A DNA stretch of 27,584 nucleotides from a virus. A model generated the notes under the pieces. That model was given only the letters and a program-made list of their open reading frames with translations, was not told where the DNA came from and made no database searches. Shown here piece by piece: positions 8,583-21,705 of this stretch. The DNA lies in the IMG/VR virus record IMGVR_UViG_3300047356_000215, positions 1-27,584 of that record; one strand, given 5' to 3'. Made by a program: the position numbers and the translations under genes. Position 1 is the stretch's first letter. Each line of letters opens with the position of its first letter.

Positions 8583-8672
8583 TTATATCACCATCAATTT
8601 ATCAATATTTAAACCAGCTAGTACCATAAGTGCTGTAAATACTATTGCTATGAACCAATCATCCCTACTCAT
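8583..8672 (-). CDS. 29-residue single-TM peptide
   Basis: A short ORF whose ATG (8672-8670) overlaps the stop of the upstream 87-residue gene (ATGA). GAGG in the end of that gene serves as ribosome binding site. The peptide starts MSRDDW and then has one hydrophobic segment (FIAIVFTALMVLAGL, about residues 7-21). It could be a small membrane peptide (holin- or antiholin-like, or a membrane-protein modulator). The start overlap and single TM support it, but the length makes chance possible. Confidence 0.5.
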   Translation of the reverse strand: MSRDDWFIAIVFTALMVLAGLNIDKLMVI

Positions 8673-8932
8673 AATTCATCCTCTTCTTTATCACGCCCAA
8701 AATATCCTAGATTAAACCATTTCCCATTATCTGCTAGGGGAGTGATACCACCTTCTGGACCAGCTATATATCTATAATGACATCCTTTCATTTTAATTGG
8801 TGAGAATTGAAAATATCCTCTTTCACTACCAAGCCGTCTGATCATTCTAGTTGCGTGGTCAGCTATTTCTTGACCAGTATAATTTTCATCTGGTTCTTGA
8901 AGCTCAATCCATACATTCATTGTTGGTTTCAT
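8669..8932 (-). CDS. Hypothetical protein
   Basis: An 87-residue protein of unknown function, acidic at the C-terminus (GRDKEEDEL). It has a helix with ATRMIRRLGSERGYFQFSP followed by a Tyr/Gly-rich part (CHYRYIAGPEGG, WFNLGYFGRD). The start at 8932 has GAGAGGA eight to ten bases upstream. It lies in the minus-strand arm of the accessory cassette, and a hairpin leader (8958-8980) separates it from the gene before it. Confidence 0.72.
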   Translation of the reverse strand: MKPTMNVWIELQEPDENYTGQEIADHATRMIRRLGSERGYFQFSPIKMKGCHYRYIAGPEGGITPLADNGKWFNLGYFGRDKEEDEL

Positions 8933-8957
8933 TTTATTGTCCTCTCAAATTTAAGTT

Positions 8958-8986: not shown

Positions 8987-9304
8987 TTAAAAAAATGGCT
9001 CCCACCATTCACCATTTAATCTGCCAACATTAGTTGGCCGCTGTATTATAGTTTGCTTGACACCATCGCACTCACTATGTTCTTTGACCCTTGCTAGGCA
9101 GTCAATCAAAGTACCCTTTTTACCCCAACATTGTGTACCTTTGTAGATAACAATATTATTATTATTATCGCGGCAAATATTAACGTATTTTGTTCCTTGA
9201 TAAACGTGCTGTACTGTCAGTTCGAAACGTTGACGCTCATTAACAATACCCACATAGTCAGATTTACTATCAGATTCTTTTGAACATGATTTAGTTTTTT
9301 CCAA
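8987..9304 (-). CDS. Hypothetical protein with VKEHxxxxGVKQT motif
   Basis: A 105-residue protein starting at TTG 9304, eight bases after a strong GGAGG. The N-terminus is polar (Lys/Ser/Asp), followed by RDNNNNIVIYKG, a short beta pair, and LARVKEHSECDGVKQTIIQRP. The phrase VKEHxEYxGxKQTxxxR is familiar from many phage proteins without a firm function and resembles the end of a small beta-barrel domain. It is the first gene of the minus-strand arm transcribed from the consensus promoter at 9339-9367. Confidence 0.75.
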   Translation of the reverse strand: MEKTKSCSKESDSKSDYVGIVNERQRFELTVQHVYQGTKYVNICRDNNNNIVIYKGTQCWGKKGTLIDCLARVKEHSECDGVKQTIIQRPTNVGRLNGEWWEPFF

Positions 9305-9321
9305 TCTCTTGTCCTCCTTTC

Positions 9322-9485: not shown

Positions 9486-9501
9486 TTGAAAGGACACTAA
9501 T

Positions 9502-9928: not shown

Positions 9929-9954
9929 TTAATTTAATACGAGAGGATAAGAAT

Positions 9955-11257: not shown

Positions 11258-11267
11258 CAATATTTTT
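11215..11267. terminator. Candidate bidirectional terminator between GNAT and portal genes
   Basis: An outer pair TGACC/GGTCA (11215-11219, 11244-11248) encloses a hairpin CCAACT/AGTTGG (11220-11235). It is followed by an AAAAATA/TATTTTT inverted repeat (11250-11267) that gives a U run to transcripts from either side. The two genes converge here. Confidence 0.4.
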
Positions 11268-13428
11268 ATTCTTTAGTGCTAAGTGGATGGTCTTTAGGCA
11301 GTAAATCAGTGTCATATTTTCCACTCTTAAAGCGCCCTGTTCTTACTGCGCTTAAAAACCCATTAACTCTAGCATAAGCCCACTGGTCGGCACTACTGAC
11401 GCTTGGGCGTACACTTTGTGGGTTGTTTTGATATGCTCCAACTCCACGTCTAAATACAGCCTCTAACATTCCTTGAGTTACACGCTTTCCTTTTTTATCA
11501 CCATGATTTTCATTATGATCTTTTACTTTCTCAGCAAGTCCTTTTTTTACAGCTTCACTAATTTTAGCTTTTACATCCATAATGTCTTCGTTTGTAAAAG
11601 ATTTTTCTAAATCATAATACTTTTCACGTTCCTTATCTAGCTGTGTTACTTTTCGATTTGCCCATGACTGACCTTCATCACCGCCCCAACCGAGCCAAGC
11701 TATTAGTCCAGCACTTGGGTATCCATCTTCACCACGCCTAAATCCTTGAGCTTGTTTATCAACCTCGTGTCTAGCAAAAAAAGACTTCATTCTTCTTACT
11801 GTTCTAGGTGATAGTCTTTCTCTAGCTATAAGCTGATTTGCCCTTGCAACCCCAACAGATGTCATGCCTCTTTTATGTTCTTTTCGTAAATCTAATGCGC
11901 GTTTACCATTAATTGCCATAGCTTCTGTTGGCTTTGTATCTATATCGCTTTCAGCCTTATCTTCACTATCCTTTAAATCTTCGCCTGTAGCTTCCACATA
12001 TGATGAATGAGTATTACATGGCATATAAATCGTTTCGCCGTTTTCAGTGTGGCTATGAGAGCCTACACAGCCGATCTCATTAGCCCTTTCGATTGCTTCG
12101 TCTTCTGTTGTGAAAACATCTTTTCTAATTTCAGATTTTTCCCCATATGCTGATTTAGAGTCATCTTCTGCATCACTACCACTAGCTGGAGGGATAATAG
12201 GGCTACCCAGTGGGAAAAGATTTGCGGCAATAAATACATCATCACCACCCTCAATAGGTGTTAATCCTAATCTATCTCTAGCCTCATTCCTTGTTATTAT
12301 ACCCTCACGGACTGCGGCTGTTACGTTTTCATAGACACGCTTTCTGCGTTCAACCATAGCTGGGATGCTGTCATAATCGTAATCAATTCTAATATCATCA
12401 CCATATGAGGGTGAAAGCCACTCATTTAGATCGTTACAGACACGCATAGCCAATGGTATGATTGTTTCTTCATACATGGCTAATCGAGCTTCCTGTATAT
12501 TCGAATATGTTTGGCTATCGGGGATACCGATAATCTGCGAGGGAATACCAAAACACAATGCAATATCTTTCGCCGCCATATGCTTGTTTTGTAAGAAATC
12601 CATGTCCTTTGGTGTCATACCCATTTCTTTCCAATCGAAATCACCTTCAAGCAACATAGGTTTGCCAGAGTTATTAGTACCACTCATTCTGCGGTCTAAA
12701 TCGTCTTTTATTTGTTTTCTTTGAACATCAGACATCATCATAGGTGCGCCAGATGTGTCTGTAGGCTTAAATATAACAGCCCCTGATGGTCTAGCTCCAT
12801 TAACAAGCAGTGCTATGTTATGTTTTGCTATGAGATTGTGTTGATCAACATCTATTGAAGCCGCCATAAGTGGTGACATACCTAGATAATCGTCTAATGG
12901 ATTCCAAGTTTTAAAATGCTTTACTTCTGATTGACCTGTAAATGGGTCAGCTTCATAAGTTTTTGCAACCTTTCCATTGAGCATATAATTATACCCTTTT
13001 GGTATAGAAGTATTGCTAGGGATTATTTCAACTCGATCTGGCCTTAAAAGGTGTAACTCAGATGGCACGCCCCCAGCGGTGCTACTAATAGCGAAACTAT
13101 TACCAGATAATAAAATATACGCATAAAGTGATTGAAAATATTCATTTCCTGCCTGTATTGGATTAGGTTTCTTTAAAAGAGTTAATAATGGGTGTTGCTC
13201 TAGCTCTACATCGCCTTGATATACTTTAAAATTTATAGAAGCGGCGGCATTTGATATTTCATTAACGCATTTAAAAACTACCGCATTTTGCTGATAACCC
13301 TCTTTGGCATAAGACTTATAATTATCTTGCCTATTATGATATGGGGTTGTTTGTTGCATATGCACTCTTGGCGCTTCTTTATGTTCTAAATTTAGATTGT
13401 TACGTTTTAAAAAATCAAAAAATGCCAT
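11266..13428 (-). CDS. Portal protein with three-part C-terminal extension
   Basis: A 720-residue protein. Residues 1-410 are an HK97-type portal (about 400 residues in relatives): AVVFKCVNEISNAAASI, LLSGNSFAI, GMSPLMAA, and ALCFGIPSQIIGIPDSQTYSN are portal motifs. After a linker come three further segments: residues 438-478, a Cys/His-rich motif (Cys454, His458, His460, Cys471, His474) that looks like a zinc site; residues 510-590, GVARANQL, RMKSFFARHEVDKQ and GWGGDEGQSWA; and residues 640-716, VFRRGVGAY, QWAYARVNGFL and DTDLLPKDHPLS. These segments occur in other phage head-operon proteins, from memory, with unknown roles. The ATG overlaps the terminase stop (TAATG). Confidence 0.92.
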   Translation of the reverse strand: MAFFDFLKRNNLNLEHKEAPRVHMQQTTPYHNRQDNYKSYAKEGYQQNAVVFKCVNEISNAAASINFKVYQGDVELEQHPLLTLLKKPNPIQAGNEYFQSLYAYILLSGNSFAISSTAGGVPSELHLLRPDRVEIIPSNTSIPKGYNYMLNGKVAKTYEADPFTGQSEVKHFKTWNPLDDYLGMSPLMAASIDVDQHNLIAKHNIALLVNGARPSGAVIFKPTDTSGAPMMMSDVQRKQIKDDLDRRMSGTNNSGKPMLLEGDFDWKEMGMTPKDMDFLQNKHMAAKDIALCFGIPSQIIGIPDSQTYSNIQEARLAMYEETIIPLAMRVCNDLNEWLSPSYGDDIRIDYDYDSIPAMVERRKRVYENVTAAVREGIITRNEARDRLGLTPIEGGDDVFIAANLFPLGSPIIPPASGSDAEDDSKSAYGEKSEIRKDVFTTEDEAIERANEIGCVGSHSHTENGETIYMPCNTHSSYVEATGEDLKDSEDKAESDIDTKPTEAMAINGKRALDLRKEHKRGMTSVGVARANQLIARERLSPRTVRRMKSFFARHEVDKQAQGFRRGEDGYPSAGLIAWLGWGGDEGQSWANRKVTQLDKEREKYYDLEKSFTNEDIMDVKAKISEAVKKGLAEKVKDHNENHGDKKGKRVTQGMLEAVFRRGVGAYQNNPQSVRPSVSSADQWAYARVNGFLSAVRTGRFKSGKYDTDLLPKDHPLSTKE

Positions 13429-15106: not shown

Positions 15107-16360
15107 TTATTTAGGGCTTTTTTGGTCATCATATTCTACGCCTGTAGACTCTAATATAGCTTTTTCTCCAGTGAAATCTTCCCATCTTTTTATAATTACA
15201 TCACAATATTTAGGGTCTAGTTCCATCATACGACATACTCTATTTTTCTTTTCACTAGCTATCATTGTAGAACCAGAACCACCAAATAAATCTAAAACTA
15301 TGCCATTTACCTGACTTCCATCATCTATAGCCTTCTCAACTAGCTCAACTGGCTTCATAGTTGGGTGTAAATCATTTTTGGAAGTTCTTTTTATGCGCCA
15401 TATATCCATTCCATTTTTACCGCCATAAAACTTATGGTTATTAACCCATCCATAGAACATAGGCTCGTACATACTCATATAATCGCTATTGCTTAGAGTA
15501 TGATTACCTTTATCCCATATAACCAGAGAACGACATTGTAACCCTACACGGTCAAAACTAGAATAATACTGGGCTATTCCTAACCTATAGAAAGTAATAT
15601 AAAAAGCACCATCGACTTTTGCTTTTATTATTGTGTTTATACTATCTAAGAAATCATCACCATCTGCCTTAGACATTTTATCATTCTTTATAGCGCCGTG
15701 TTTTGCATTGAAAGATTTACTTCCATCAGCATGTATACCGCCAGTGAAGTCCATCAAGTAAGGTGGGTCTGTAAATATCATGTTAGCTGTCTCTGGCATA
15801 AGCTTATCAACACTATCAATCGAAGTGCTGTCACCACACATAAGTCTATGCTTTCCTAAAATCCAAACATCGCCCTCAACTGTTACAGGTGTTTCAGGAA
15901 TTTCAGGAACAGCGTCATCTTCTGTTAGACCTTCTTTTTCATCTTCTATGAGTAAATCTGATAATTCATCTGCACTAAAACCGATTAAATCTATATCAAA
16001 ATCTAACTCTTGTAGACCTTCGAATTCTAACTTTAACATCTCTTCGTCCCAAGTAGAATTCATAGCTAATTTATTATCAGCTATTACATATGCTTTTTTT
16101 TGCGCTTCAGTCCAGTTAGTAGCTTTCATAGCTGGAACTTCATCTAAAGAAAGCTTTCCAGCCGCCATAATTCTTCCATGACCTGCTAAAATAGTATTTT
16201 TTTCATCTATAAGAATAGGTACTGTAAAACCCCATTCCTGTATACTAGAGGCAATCTGATTTACCTGTTCATCACTATGTACCCTAGAGTTCATAGCATA
16301 AGGCAAAACATCTTTAACTTTGACTAATTCAACCTTAACCGCTGGCCATTCATTTTTCAT
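15107..16360 (-). CDS. ParB-like nuclease domain fused to N6/N4 DNA methyltransferase
   Basis: A 417-residue protein. Residues 8-130 form a ParB/Srx-like domain (VLPYAMNSRVHSDEQVNQIASSI, ILAGHGRI). Residues 165-410 are a beta-class S-adenosylmethionine-dependent methyltransferase: GDVWILGKHRLMCGDST, catalytic DPPY at 198-201, HPTMKP at 332-337 and the cofactor loop DLFGGSGST at 357-365. No restriction partner is visible, so it is an orphan enzyme that probably protects phage DNA or marks it for packaging or replication. Strong AGGAGG precedes the ATG, and a large hairpin (16385-16424) lies just above it. The recognition site cannot be read from the sequence. Confidence 0.9.
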   Translation of the reverse strand: MKNEWPAVKVELVKVKDVLPYAMNSRVHSDEQVNQIASSIQEWGFTVPILIDEKNTILAGHGRIMAAGKLSLDEVPAMKATNWTEAQKKAYVIADNKLAMNSTWDEEMLKLEFEGLQELDFDIDLIGFSADELSDLLIEDEKEGLTEDDAVPEIPETPVTVEGDVWILGKHRLMCGDSTSIDSVDKLMPETANMIFTDPPYLMDFTGGIHADGSKSFNAKHGAIKNDKMSKADGDDFLDSINTIIKAKVDGAFYITFYRLGIAQYYSSFDRVGLQCRSLVIWDKGNHTLSNSDYMSMYEPMFYGWVNNHKFYGGKNGMDIWRIKRTSKNDLHPTMKPVELVEKAIDDGSQVNGIVLDLFGGSGSTMIASEKKNRVCRMMELDPKYCDVIIKRWEDFTGEKAILESTGVEYDDQKSPK

Positions 16361-16522: not shown

Positions 16523-16549
16523 TAGCTCCTCATAATAAACGAGGAGCTA
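16523..16549 (-). terminator. Terminator after the replication genes
   Basis: TAGCTCCTC and GAGGAGCTA form a nine-base-pair stem around a nine-base loop. On the minus strand the stem is followed by TTTATTAATA, which fits a Rho-independent terminator for the replication operon; the plus strand has no U run. It lies 50 bases after the end of the 16599 gene. Confidence 0.6.
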
Positions 16550-16598: not shown

Positions 16599-16991
16599 TC
16601 ATCTAATTGTCCCTAATAATTCAATAGATAAGGCTTTTCTTTTTTCAGCATCTGGTTCTTTTCGACTTATTATTGGAATTTGTTTTTTAGGCTGTAAAGC
16701 TACAACTCTTTTTCTAGCCTTAATTATTAATTGTAAAACCAGACCTTCATGAGGTCGTTTAGATGGATATTCGATGAGATATTGCTTACAGGCATTATTA
16801 ATTTCAGTTTCAGTATAATCTTGCAACATATCCATCCACCCAAGTAAAATATCACGTTTTACCAATTCATCCTGTGGAACTTGAAAGTATCGCCCCATCA
16901 GAGCTTGTGCTTTGATAGCTATAAATGCTCTATGCTTAGATAATTGATCATCGTTTAAAACAGTTGTTTGTAATACTGGTAAATTACTCAT
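16599..16991 (-). CDS. Probable replication helper (P-like)
   Basis: A 130-residue protein directly after the O-like initiator, with overlapping stop and start (ATGA). The middle has ALMGRYF, ILLGWMDMLQDYTETEINNACKQYLIEYPSKRPHEGLVLQLIIKARKR. Small proteins with this layout (D-W-x-x-x-L, A-C-x-x-Y-L, K/RRP) follow the initiator in alphaproteobacterial phages and prophages and are thought to be helicase-loader-like helpers. This is known from gene order rather than biochemistry; no ATPase motif is present. Confidence 0.6.
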   Translation of the reverse strand: MSNLPVLQTTVLNDDQLSKHRAFIAIKAQALMGRYFQVPQDELVKRDILLGWMDMLQDYTETEINNACKQYLIEYPSKRPHEGLVLQLIIKARKRVVALQPKKQIPIISRKEPDAEKRKALSIELLGTIR

Positions 16992-17662
16992 CTTTGAACC
17001 CTCGCAATATCATTAACCATATTCCTAAATTGATAATCTATATTGTCATTTTTTTCATCATCTAAATCATCATTCCACCCATCCCTATTCAACCAAGTAG
17101 CAGGGTGAGGTATAAATTTCTTTGGCTTATGAGAAACACTATCAGCAAATGGTTTTACTGCATCTAATATTTTATCTACTCCGACACGTTGCGTTGCTTT
17201 TTTAAAAGCTTTTTCAGCATTTGGTTTACCTACGCTTCTAGGATACATTTTCCAGAAATGATTAAAAGCAATAGAAACTGATCTTAATACTGGTTCATTT
17301 ACATGGTTATTTATTACATGGTTATTGGTATCCAAATTCTGGACGGTGGGCTGTCCAGATTCTACACCCCCACCCTGCAAATTTTGCACCCCCTTATTTA
17401 TATGGAGATTATATAAGTTAGATGTTTGTTGCCCATTATGTCTAACCCTACCTATTCGCTCAATTAATCCTTTGCTTTCTAAAACTTTCAAGTGGTTAAA
17501 TATAGAGCTTTTAGACATATTACAGTCTTTTGCCATTCTGTTAGTACTGGGAAAACATCCATAATCAGGATTGTGCCTATTAGATAACATTAATAATACA
17601 ATTTTTTGTGATGGGCTTAAATCAGGCATATGTAATGCCCATACAACCGCTTTCATACTCAT
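16988..17662 (-). CDS. Replication initiator, O-like, N-terminal winged helix
   Basis: A 224-residue protein. Residues 10-85 are a winged-helix domain of the HTH_36 type (LSPSQKIVLLMLSNRHN, STNRMAKDCNMSKSSIFNHLKVLESKGLIER). Residues 90-125 are a low-complexity linker with repeated VQNL and NNHV units. Residues 130-224 contain FWKMYPRSVGKPNAEKAFKKA, a C-terminal segment common in phage replication proteins. The start is the ATG at 17662 because AAAGGACA stands just upstream; an ATG at 17701 has no such site. As in lambda O, the linker DNA carries repeats that may be the origin. Confidence 0.8.
   Translation of the reverse strand: MSMKAVVWALHMPDLSPSQKIVLLMLSNRHNPDYGCFPSTNRMAKDCNMSKSSIFNHLKVLESKGLIERIGRVRHNGQQTSNLYNLHINKGVQNLQGGGVESGQPTVQNLDTNNHVINNHVNEPVLRSVSIAFNHFWKMYPRSVGKPNAEKAFKKATQRVGVDKILDAVKPFADSVSHKPKKFIPHPATWLNRDGWNDDLDDEKNDNIDYQFRNMVNDIARVQR
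17299..17388. other. Candidate replication origin inside the initiator gene
   Basis: Within the linker-coding part lie two direct copies of TTACATGGTTATT (17299-17311 and 17314-17326, period 15), two 13-base near-palindromes TCCAAATTCTGGA (17331-17343) and TGCAAATTTTGCA (17376-17388), and a CTGGAC/GTCCAG inverted repeat (17339-17358). Repeats in the O linker define the lambda origin; the analogy is the basis of this call. Confidence 0.4.
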
Positions 17663-17726
17663 AATTTTGTCCTTTCTTTTTATATTAATATATTTAAACA
17701 AATAGTTATTAAAATCAACTTTTTTG

Positions 17727-17754
17727 TTGTGTTAATGTTTTTTTCATATATATT
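17727..17754 (+). promoter_or_regulatory. Weak promoter for the OOP-like RNA
   Basis: TTGTGT (17727-17732) and TATATT (17749-17754) are 16 bases apart on the plus strand. The -10 box is five of six to consensus, the -35 box three of six. It points away from the initiator gene toward the terminator at 17831-17880. Confidence 0.35.
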
Positions 17755-17760
17755 GGGTTT

Positions 17761-17880
17761 TGTGTAGTTTGCTTCACTGATCAGGTAATAATGCTTGTGA
17801 TGGGTTTGGTAGCCAACAAACTTCACCTAACCCCACACTAAGTCTCTTGTCCTTTCGTAGTGTGGGGTTTTATTTATTTT
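17761..17880 (+). ncRNA. Candidate antisense / trans-acting RNA (lambda OOP-like position)
   Basis: A transcript of about 120 bases from the promoter at 17727-17754 to the strong terminator ending near 17880 would contain no plausible gene. It runs opposite to the flanking minus-strand genes, covers the 5' leader of the initiator mRNA and the 3' end of the small HTH regulator gene, the same arrangement as lambda OOP RNA relative to O and cII. A short hairpin GTTTG/CAAAC lies near 17800-17820. Its terminator loop reads CTCTTGTCCTTTC, complementary to the GAAAGGACA(A) ribosome binding sites at 17670, 21694 and 9490. The promoter is weak and there is no expression evidence. Confidence 0.42.
17831..17880 (+). 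terminator. Strong Rho-independent terminator, plus strand
   Basis: CCCCACACTA (17831-17840) and TAGTGTGGGG (17858-17867) form a perfect ten-base-pair stem with a 17-base loop, followed by TTTTATTTATTTT. All nearby annotated genes run on the minus strand, so it must end a separate plus-strand transcript. The T run overlaps the stop codon of the minus-strand HTH gene. Confidence 0.82.
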
Positions 17881-18052
17881 CATCAAAGTATTCAGATAAT
17901 TTTTCTAATGTAGAGAGTGAAGGTTTTCCATCATTTTTTCTTATTCTAGATAAAGACATATATGTTAATCCGCATTTATCCGCTACATATGATAATCTTC
18001 TATCAACAAGTTTCTCTCTTACTTCTTGAGCTGTTAGTAATTTTGCTGTCAT
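17870..18052 (-). CDS. Small HTH regulator (Cro/CII-like)
   Basis: A 60-residue DNA-binding protein: AQEVREKLVDRRLSYVADKCGLTYMSLSRIRKNDGKPSLSTLEKLSEYF is a lambda-repressor-type helix-turn-helix, with LSYVADKCGLTYMSLSRI as the recognition part. The ATG at 18052 has GGAG seven bases upstream; an ATG at 18079 has none. It lies between the divergent promoter at 18087-18122 and the initiator gene, and so probably controls both operons. The candidate OOP-like RNA is antisense to its 3' end. Confidence 0.8.
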   Translation of the reverse strand: MTAKLLTAQEVREKLVDRRLSYVADKCGLTYMSLSRIRKNDGKPSLSTLEKLSEYFDENK

Positions 18053-18086
18053 TTTTTTCTCCAAAGTTAAATAATTCATTTTTATC

Positions 18087-18122: not shown

Positions 18123-18149
18123 TAGAGAATATATGGACAGGAGAAAATA

Positions 18150-18365
18150 ATGAAAAACCCACCAATAAGTTTTGTAAAATCTCAAATAATAAATGCGATT
18201 GCAAACCATACTTTAGAATTATTAGAACGTGAGAAATCAGGTGAAATTGATAACCAACATTTCTTAGCATGTAGTTTTCCAGCAAACGCTATAAAAACAA
18301 TAGATAAAGCAATAGCTAATTCTATTGAGTTATTTAATTCAAAGGACAGTAATAATGAGAATTGA
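18150..18365 (+). CDS. Hypothetical protein
   Basis: A 71-residue, helical protein (QIINAIANHTLELLEREKSGEI, ANAIKTIDKAIANSIELF). No family recognised. AGGAG eight bases upstream of the ATG. It is the first gene of the plus-strand recombination operon, and its last four codons overlap the next gene. Confidence 0.7.
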   Translation: MKNPPISFVKSQIINAIANHTLELLEREKSGEIDNQHFLACSFPANAIKTIDKAIANSIELFNSKDSNNEN

Positions 18366-20226: not shown

Positions 20227-20567
20227 AATACCCTTATACCGAAGAGCAAATAATGATTAGATCAATGCCATGCCCAACTTGCTTTGCAAAACCAAGACAT
20301 CACTGCAAAAGAAAACCAAGAGAAGATGGTGGGATTAAAAACCATCAAGAACGTCAATGGTTGTGGCATGATTTTGTAAAAAGCTGTAAAAAGACAGGGC
20401 TTGTGCAATTGCATAAAGGTACGATTGAATGGGCAGTAAATGCAGAGCAATCATTTATAAATCAACATGAACGAGAATATAATGCATTAAAAAATATAAG
20501 ATATACTCAACAGGAACTTCATGATGAGTACGAAAGACAGCAAGAGTCAATGAGGACAGGAAAATGA
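20223..20567 (+). CDS. Small zinc-finger-like protein
   Basis: A 114-residue protein with CPTCFAKPRHHCKRK near residues 17-31, a Cys-x2-Cys...Cys cluster that with nearby His may bind one zinc, followed by an HQERQWLWHDF helix and a long charged helix (residues 70-114). Phage proteins with a C-x-x-C-x-A-x-P-G-x-x-C motif are common and unassigned. It overlaps its neighbours by four bases on both sides (ATGA). Confidence 0.68.
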   Translation: MKYPYTEEQIMIRSMPCPTCFAKPRHHCKRKPREDGGIKNHQERQWLWHDFVKSCKKTGLVQLHKGTIEWAVNAEQSFINQHEREYNALKNIRYTQQELHDEYERQQESMRTGK

Positions 20568-21675: not shown

Positions 21676-21705
21676 ATTTATATAACATAAATGAAAGGAC
21701 AAATT

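Follow-up and report, generated by a model that had tools for sequence, protein, structure and literature searches.

The window analyzed here, the whole 27,584-nt stretch of IMG/VR record IMGVR_UViG_3300047356_000215, comes from an uncultivated marine phage. On its minus strand, genes for a small HTH regulator and a replication initiation protein form an operon; between them, antisense to this operon and flanked by its genes on both sides, lies a predicted small RNA (Table 1). A divergent plus-strand operon encodes, in order, the product of gene 18150, a Mu Gam-like protein (18355), an unknown protein, SSB, and NinB.

Table 1. Genes, predicted RNA elements, and candidate ribosome binding site (RBS) targets in the window
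Feature	Position	Strand	Description
Replication initiation protein gene	16988-17662	-	phrog_270, E = 3e-41; HTH_36
Small HTH regulator gene	17870-18079	-	Upstream of the initiator gene, same operon; 3' end overlaps the RNA by ~11 nt
Predicted target gene F (18150)	18150-18365	+	71 aa, no family; opens the divergent early operon
Predicted promoter	17727-17754	+	TTGTGT-16-TATATT; TTGT and TAT invariant, spacer variable
Predicted small RNA	17760-17880	+	~120 nt, putative ends; promoter to U run
5' stem-loop of the small RNA	17762-17826	+	Differs between relatives, not conserved
Terminator hairpin	17829-17869	+	12-bp stem, 17-nt loop, then U run
Recognition loop core	17842-17856	+	GTCTCTTGTCCTTTC; 15 nt, invariant in 12/12 group-1 sequences
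RBS target, gene 18150	18135-18144	+	GGACAGGAGA; 10 bp with one G-U
RBS target, replication initiator	17667-17676	-	GAAAGGACAA; 10 nt
Candidate target, gene 21706	21693-21702	+	GAAAGGACAA; 10 nt
Candidate target, gene 9502	9488-9496	+	GAAAGGACA; 9 nt
Candidate target, gene 18355	RBS		AAAGGACA; 8 nt
Candidate target, gene 9955	9941-9952	+	GAGAGGATAAGA; 12 bp
Candidate target, TTG-start gene at 9304	9304-9317	-	GGAGGACAAGAGAT; 14 bp, runs into the start
Candidate target, gene starting at 8932	8937-8946	-	GAGAGGACAA; 10 bp; G001 homologues also carry sites
Candidate target, gene 20564	20552-20561	+	GAGGACAGGA; 10 bp

The original prediction, made from the sequence of this phage, had placed here a plus-strand RNA with a terminator, a possible upstream promoter, and no ORF. 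We likewise found no convincing ORF within it. The terminator is present, although its stem has 12 bp rather than the ten first proposed: AACCCCACACTA (17829-17840) pairs with TAGTGTGGGGTT (17858-17869), and TTTTATTTATTTT follows directly 3'. A stock terminator scan, which allows loops of 3 to 8 nt only, missed it because the loop here has 17 nt. The promoter is a weak match to the consensus, and promoter-like sites are no commoner in the scanned stretch than in shuffles, but its -35 TTGT and -10 TAT are invariant in eight aligned group-1 sequences while the spacer between them varies. Folding of 17758-17880 on the plus strand gave -33.5 kcal/mol (z = -2.75 against shuffles). No Rfam family matched the window at the gathering threshold, and the phage collection held no DNA match.

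A search with the initiator returned 13 viral loci, including one fragment of 100% identity. All 11 further contigs that reach far enough carry the hairpin with its loop core unchanged. Across the six distinct hairpins of this group (group 1), 5 of 13 stem pairs have changed on both sides, giving a covariation score of 0.41 versus 0.24 in shuffles (0 of 500 as good). Within the clade no part of the RNA is as well conserved as the loop; the stretch from promoter to hairpin diverges. The group-1 stems have G-U pairs only in the plus orientation; read from the minus strand these become A-C, which marks the plus-strand RNA as the structure under selection. When hairpins were picked symmetrically over all loci, 70 G-U pairs were counted against 21 A-C, and a T-rich stretch lay 3' of the stem in 59 of 68; these figures replace a count of 50 to 0 that was set aside as biased by stem picking. 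An exact scan of viral contigs for the loop found the hairpin confined to the same clade, the other exact matches having no stem and looking like chance or coding matches. Group 1 also shares an unchanged ATCAACTTT just 5' of the RNA promoter (17714-17722), possibly a promoter element or a binding site.

The loop is complementary to RBSs of the phage itself. The complements first listed, before the initiator, 21706, 9502, and 18355 genes, all exist at the lengths in Table 1, and the sites before 18150, 9304, 9955, 20564, and the gene starting at 8932 are additions to them. At gene 18150, the best-supported target, the loop segment UCUCUUGUCC is complementary to the RBS. Some of this complementarity is trivial, as UCCUUUC is also the anti-Shine-Dalgarno sequence. 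We kept that core fixed and shuffled only the rest of the loop: eight window RBSs are bound at -15 kcal/mol or better versus 1.5 expected (P = 0.01), and the energy of the best six gave P = 0.003 (0.007 when the first gene and the initiator were omitted). The corresponding values were P = 0.013 for relative G001 and P = 0.05 for relative G002. At -15 kcal/mol or better, the loop binds 17 of the 200 RBSs predicted in the group-1 genomes, one of them being antisense to the RNA itself (17680-17826) and dropped from the core-fixed test; the figure for relatives with other RNAs (six genomes or large parts of them) is 1 of 309. An unbiased scan placed strong matches at RBSs in 9 of 12 cases in the window, 8 of 17 in G001, and 8 of 10 in G002, and a reverse-complement probe gave 0 to 1. 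Sites are kept between the window and G001 despite different sequence, both at gene 9955 and its homologue and at 8669 and its homologues, and G009 has a site set of its own, GGAGGTTCA(C)ATG, that matches its own RNA. G005, G006, and similar relatives show a weak regulon, and that of G002 appears mainly in the unbiased scan, not in the gene-call statistics.

Initiator and Gam-like gene profiles were used to gather further loci. Most of the distant ones carry, at the corresponding position, a plus-strand terminator of unrelated sequence, and in clade after clade an unpaired segment of the RNA (8 to 15 nt) is complementary to the RBS of that phage's own first gene in the divergent operon. Thus GTGAACCTCCAA pairs with TTGGAGGTTCAC in L099 and L103, TGACCTCCA with TGGAGGTCA in L104 and L107, and TCCTTCGTTGCT with AGCAACGAAGGA in L164 (12 nt, the top match of the whole locus); the pairing spans 15 bp in L108 and 12 bp in L109. 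It was set down as a prediction before the next two scans; of the later clades, L164, L190, L183, L173, L153, and L134 fit it and L128, L136, and L182 do not. First-gene pairing is absent from 4 of 19 clades (L114, L128, L136, and L182), the RNA of L182 pairing with the initiator only. The original prediction had named a loop that drifts while the binding sites stay constant as evidence against it; what we see is a loop invariant within its clade and, across clades, an RNA segment and a target that change together.

This co-change was quantified by scoring ungapped helices between RNA and first-gene RBS in 19 clade representatives and permuting the assignments. Cognate pairs averaged -16.6 kcal/mol versus -11.3 kcal/mol for permuted ones, with 0 of 50,000 permutations as good. 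Leaving the window out did not change the outcome, and the nine later clades alone, collected after the prediction, gave P = 0.0007. For the initiator RBS the test gave P = 0.0012, driven by the window, L119, L123, L164, L173, L182, and L183. A Shine-Dalgarno sequence is present in every RBS, so that permuting the assignments also accounts for generic anti-Shine-Dalgarno pairing. Clades were picked by layout, by eye. Groups without a terminator (a subset of L168-L184, L158, and L163), with a different neighbouring gene (L147, L161, L165, and L166), or with a terminator nearly touching the initiator start (L175, L176, L181, L187, L192, and L196-L203) were left out, so the arrangement is to be read as common, not universal. 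Two other measures were abandoned: duplex energies with a pairing-probability mask, which were noisy because they joined distant short matches and were replaced by the ungapped helices, and the best complement of a 60-nt RNA over the whole locus, which was swamped by chance matches. Isolated phages with relatives of the initiator or the Gam-like protein are distant; two were inspected, Rhizobium phage RHph_X2_25, in which the divergent layout is absent, and Pseudoalteromonas phage HS2, which is unannotated. Although their first genes clearly differ, L099 and L134 share an RBS (GGAGGTTCACATG) and an RNA segment, suggesting that RBS and RNA travel as a pair upon gene swapping.

That the RNA and its predicted target sites changed together across many phage lineages points to a real switch. 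We put at roughly three in four the probability that a trans-acting phage small RNA represses the translation of the phage's own early genes. Action in trans on several early genes, already proposed originally, draws support from the covariation across clades and the core-fixed RBS statistics. Transcription of the RNA on the plus strand would start at a promoter of its own, located between the initiator and HTH genes, and end at the intrinsic terminator, whose 15-nt loop core would serve as the seed. Extended Shine-Dalgarno sequences of the phage's early genes would be the pairing partners of this seed, those of 18150 and several further genes in trans and that of the initiator leader, immediately adjacent to the RNA gene, as well. 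An RNA chaperone may take part. At every site the Shine-Dalgarno sequence lies within the complementary stretch, so the likeliest effect would be that ribosomes are blocked. Lying opposite the initiator operon and pairing in trans with the divergent one, the RNA could turn down both early operons together, probably at the shift from replication and early expression to late expression. A search of 14 records (17 to 50 kb) for a tyrosine integrase found none, which makes early shut-off or replication control likelier than lysogeny.

Could the RNA instead act purely in cis, like OOP of lambda, on the HTH-initiator message alone, by full pairing and RNase III, the other RBS matches being by-products of the Shine-Dalgarno sequence? 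Position and orientation are those of OOP, and the initiator leaders of most group-1 relatives do carry complements of 11 to 12 nt, with AGGACAAGAGA and GAAAGGACA at the initiator RBS. The leader message in most of them reads AGGACAAGAGAAAGGACA and holds overlapping 11-nt and 9-nt loop complements, of which the window keeps only the second (GAAAGGACAA, 10 nt) and L013/L102 only the first (12 nt). However, covariation is strongest with a gene that the RNA does not overlap, the one opening the divergent operon, and several clades show no notable initiator pairing, so that we find an exclusively cis role improbable. The initiator, a target in the original prediction, keeps its complementarity but yields first place to 18150, its pairing being clear in only some clades.

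We hold it to be just as improbable that the motif is a DNA site, an operator or iteron for a phage regulator or the initiator, inverted beside divergent operons, with the hairpin incidental. The matches are indeed short inverted repeats in DNA near divergent promoters, and mismatch types in the RNA-target duplexes (G-U versus A-C) show no preference for RNA over DNA and do not discriminate. Yet the group-1 motif sits inside a terminator loop flanked by a covarying stem, the pairing at 18150 in the window includes a G-U, and matches in the sense orientation fall at RBSs genome-wide (the 9 of 12 above), as against 1 of 6 for same-sense copies. An ordinary terminator that insulates the operons, its RNA having no regulatory role, is more doubtful still: plus-strand terminators exist in most relatives, some of them without pairing, but an invariant long loop and clade-by-clade covariation with the first-gene RBS would be unexpected. 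Least probable of all is a functional minus-strand hairpin in the HTH-initiator message acting as a decoy or leader element, as its loop does read like an RBS (GAAAGGACAAGAGAC) but both the U run and the G-U pairs point to the plus strand.

A translational repressor acting in trans, as we favour, has partial precedents. The likeness to lambda OOP lies in a short RNA against a message, with its own promoter (judged by sequence and conservation) and an intrinsic terminator, between small regulator and initiator genes. OOP is described as a cis antisense RNA to cII with 52 bases of overlap (PMC5869508). The original comparison with OOP therefore stands for position but not for extent, only ~11 nt of the HTH gene being overlapped here; moreover, the main predicted pairing is in trans with RBSs, and no sequence relation to OOP was shown. 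The c4 RNAs of P1 and P7 block translation of a phage gene through loops that pair with its RBS region (PMC12197685), and the loop here is likewise complementary to the RBS of a phage gene. The target of c4 is ant, in immunity control, whereas the RNA described here would use a terminator-loop seed and its own promoter against several early targets, in phages with no tyrosine integrase found. Homology to c4 in sequence or structure was not seen, with no Rfam family and no DNA match in the phage collection. P22 sar, another phage RNA, base-pairs with a phage mRNA and disturbs the initiation of its translation; it is described for a single target, ant, with no multi-gene regulon in that description (PMC12197685). 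The locus is best explained by an RNA that is placed like lambda OOP and would work more like c4 of P1.

Among bacterial small RNAs, NfeR1 and AbcR of alpha-rhizobia have an anti-Shine-Dalgarno loop whose seed pairs with several targets. They resemble our RNA in both respects; they act on bacterial chromosomal genes and have no sequence relation to it, whereas ours is phage encoded and would be directed against the phage's own genes. RNAII of plasmid pMV158 inhibits translation of a replication initiator (PMC4485353), a kind of target also predicted for the RNA described here, but serves plasmid copy control and is not a multi-gene regulator. The covariation of seed and target across lineages (none of the 50,000 permutations as good) fits a trans-acting small RNA. 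A wholly new kind of RNA, as first suggested, is too strong a claim, given that RBS-blocking phage RNAs and anti-Shine-Dalgarno bacterial small RNAs are known. The novelty lies in several predicted early targets of the phage itself, a seed in the terminator loop, and lineage-by-lineage co-evolution; we found no prior description of such a phage RNA in the open-access literature, within an incomplete coverage.

If this reading is right, many uncultivated aquatic phages control early translation through a small RNA that co-evolves with their own RBSs. Phage regulatory RNAs could then be found by sequence alone, from a terminator beside the initiator gene and covariation with the RBS of the divergent first gene. 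It would also become testable by what means early genes are shut off in phages with no integrase detected, and whether RNAs of this type keep related phages apart. A bolder and, in our estimate, unlikely extension is a lineage-private code, in which a set of early genes shares a lineage-specific extended Shine-Dalgarno sequence read by the lineage's own RNA; besides shutting off these genes, the RNA would silence the early genes of a superinfecting relative with the same code and spare phages with a different one. This would amount to RNA-based heteroimmunity in phages without a detected integrase.

A genome collection searched with the initiator profile gave one weak unrelated match, and no host was therefore assigned. 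Elsewhere in the window, a portal protein gene (11266-13428, minus strand) has a C-terminal extension that matches DUF3721 and, weakly, DUF5824, and a strong terminator-like hairpin of 11 pairs (16523-16549, minus strand) lies between the 16599-16991 gene and a ParB/methyltransferase gene. The latter, a single ParB-like/methyltransferase gene at 15107-16360, corresponds in relatives to a set of other genes whose N-terminal part is ParB-like, seen downstream of the initiator in L009 and L014. In L135 and L137, the stretch between the HTH gene and the initiator measures ~340 nt, apparently with an extra gene inserted.
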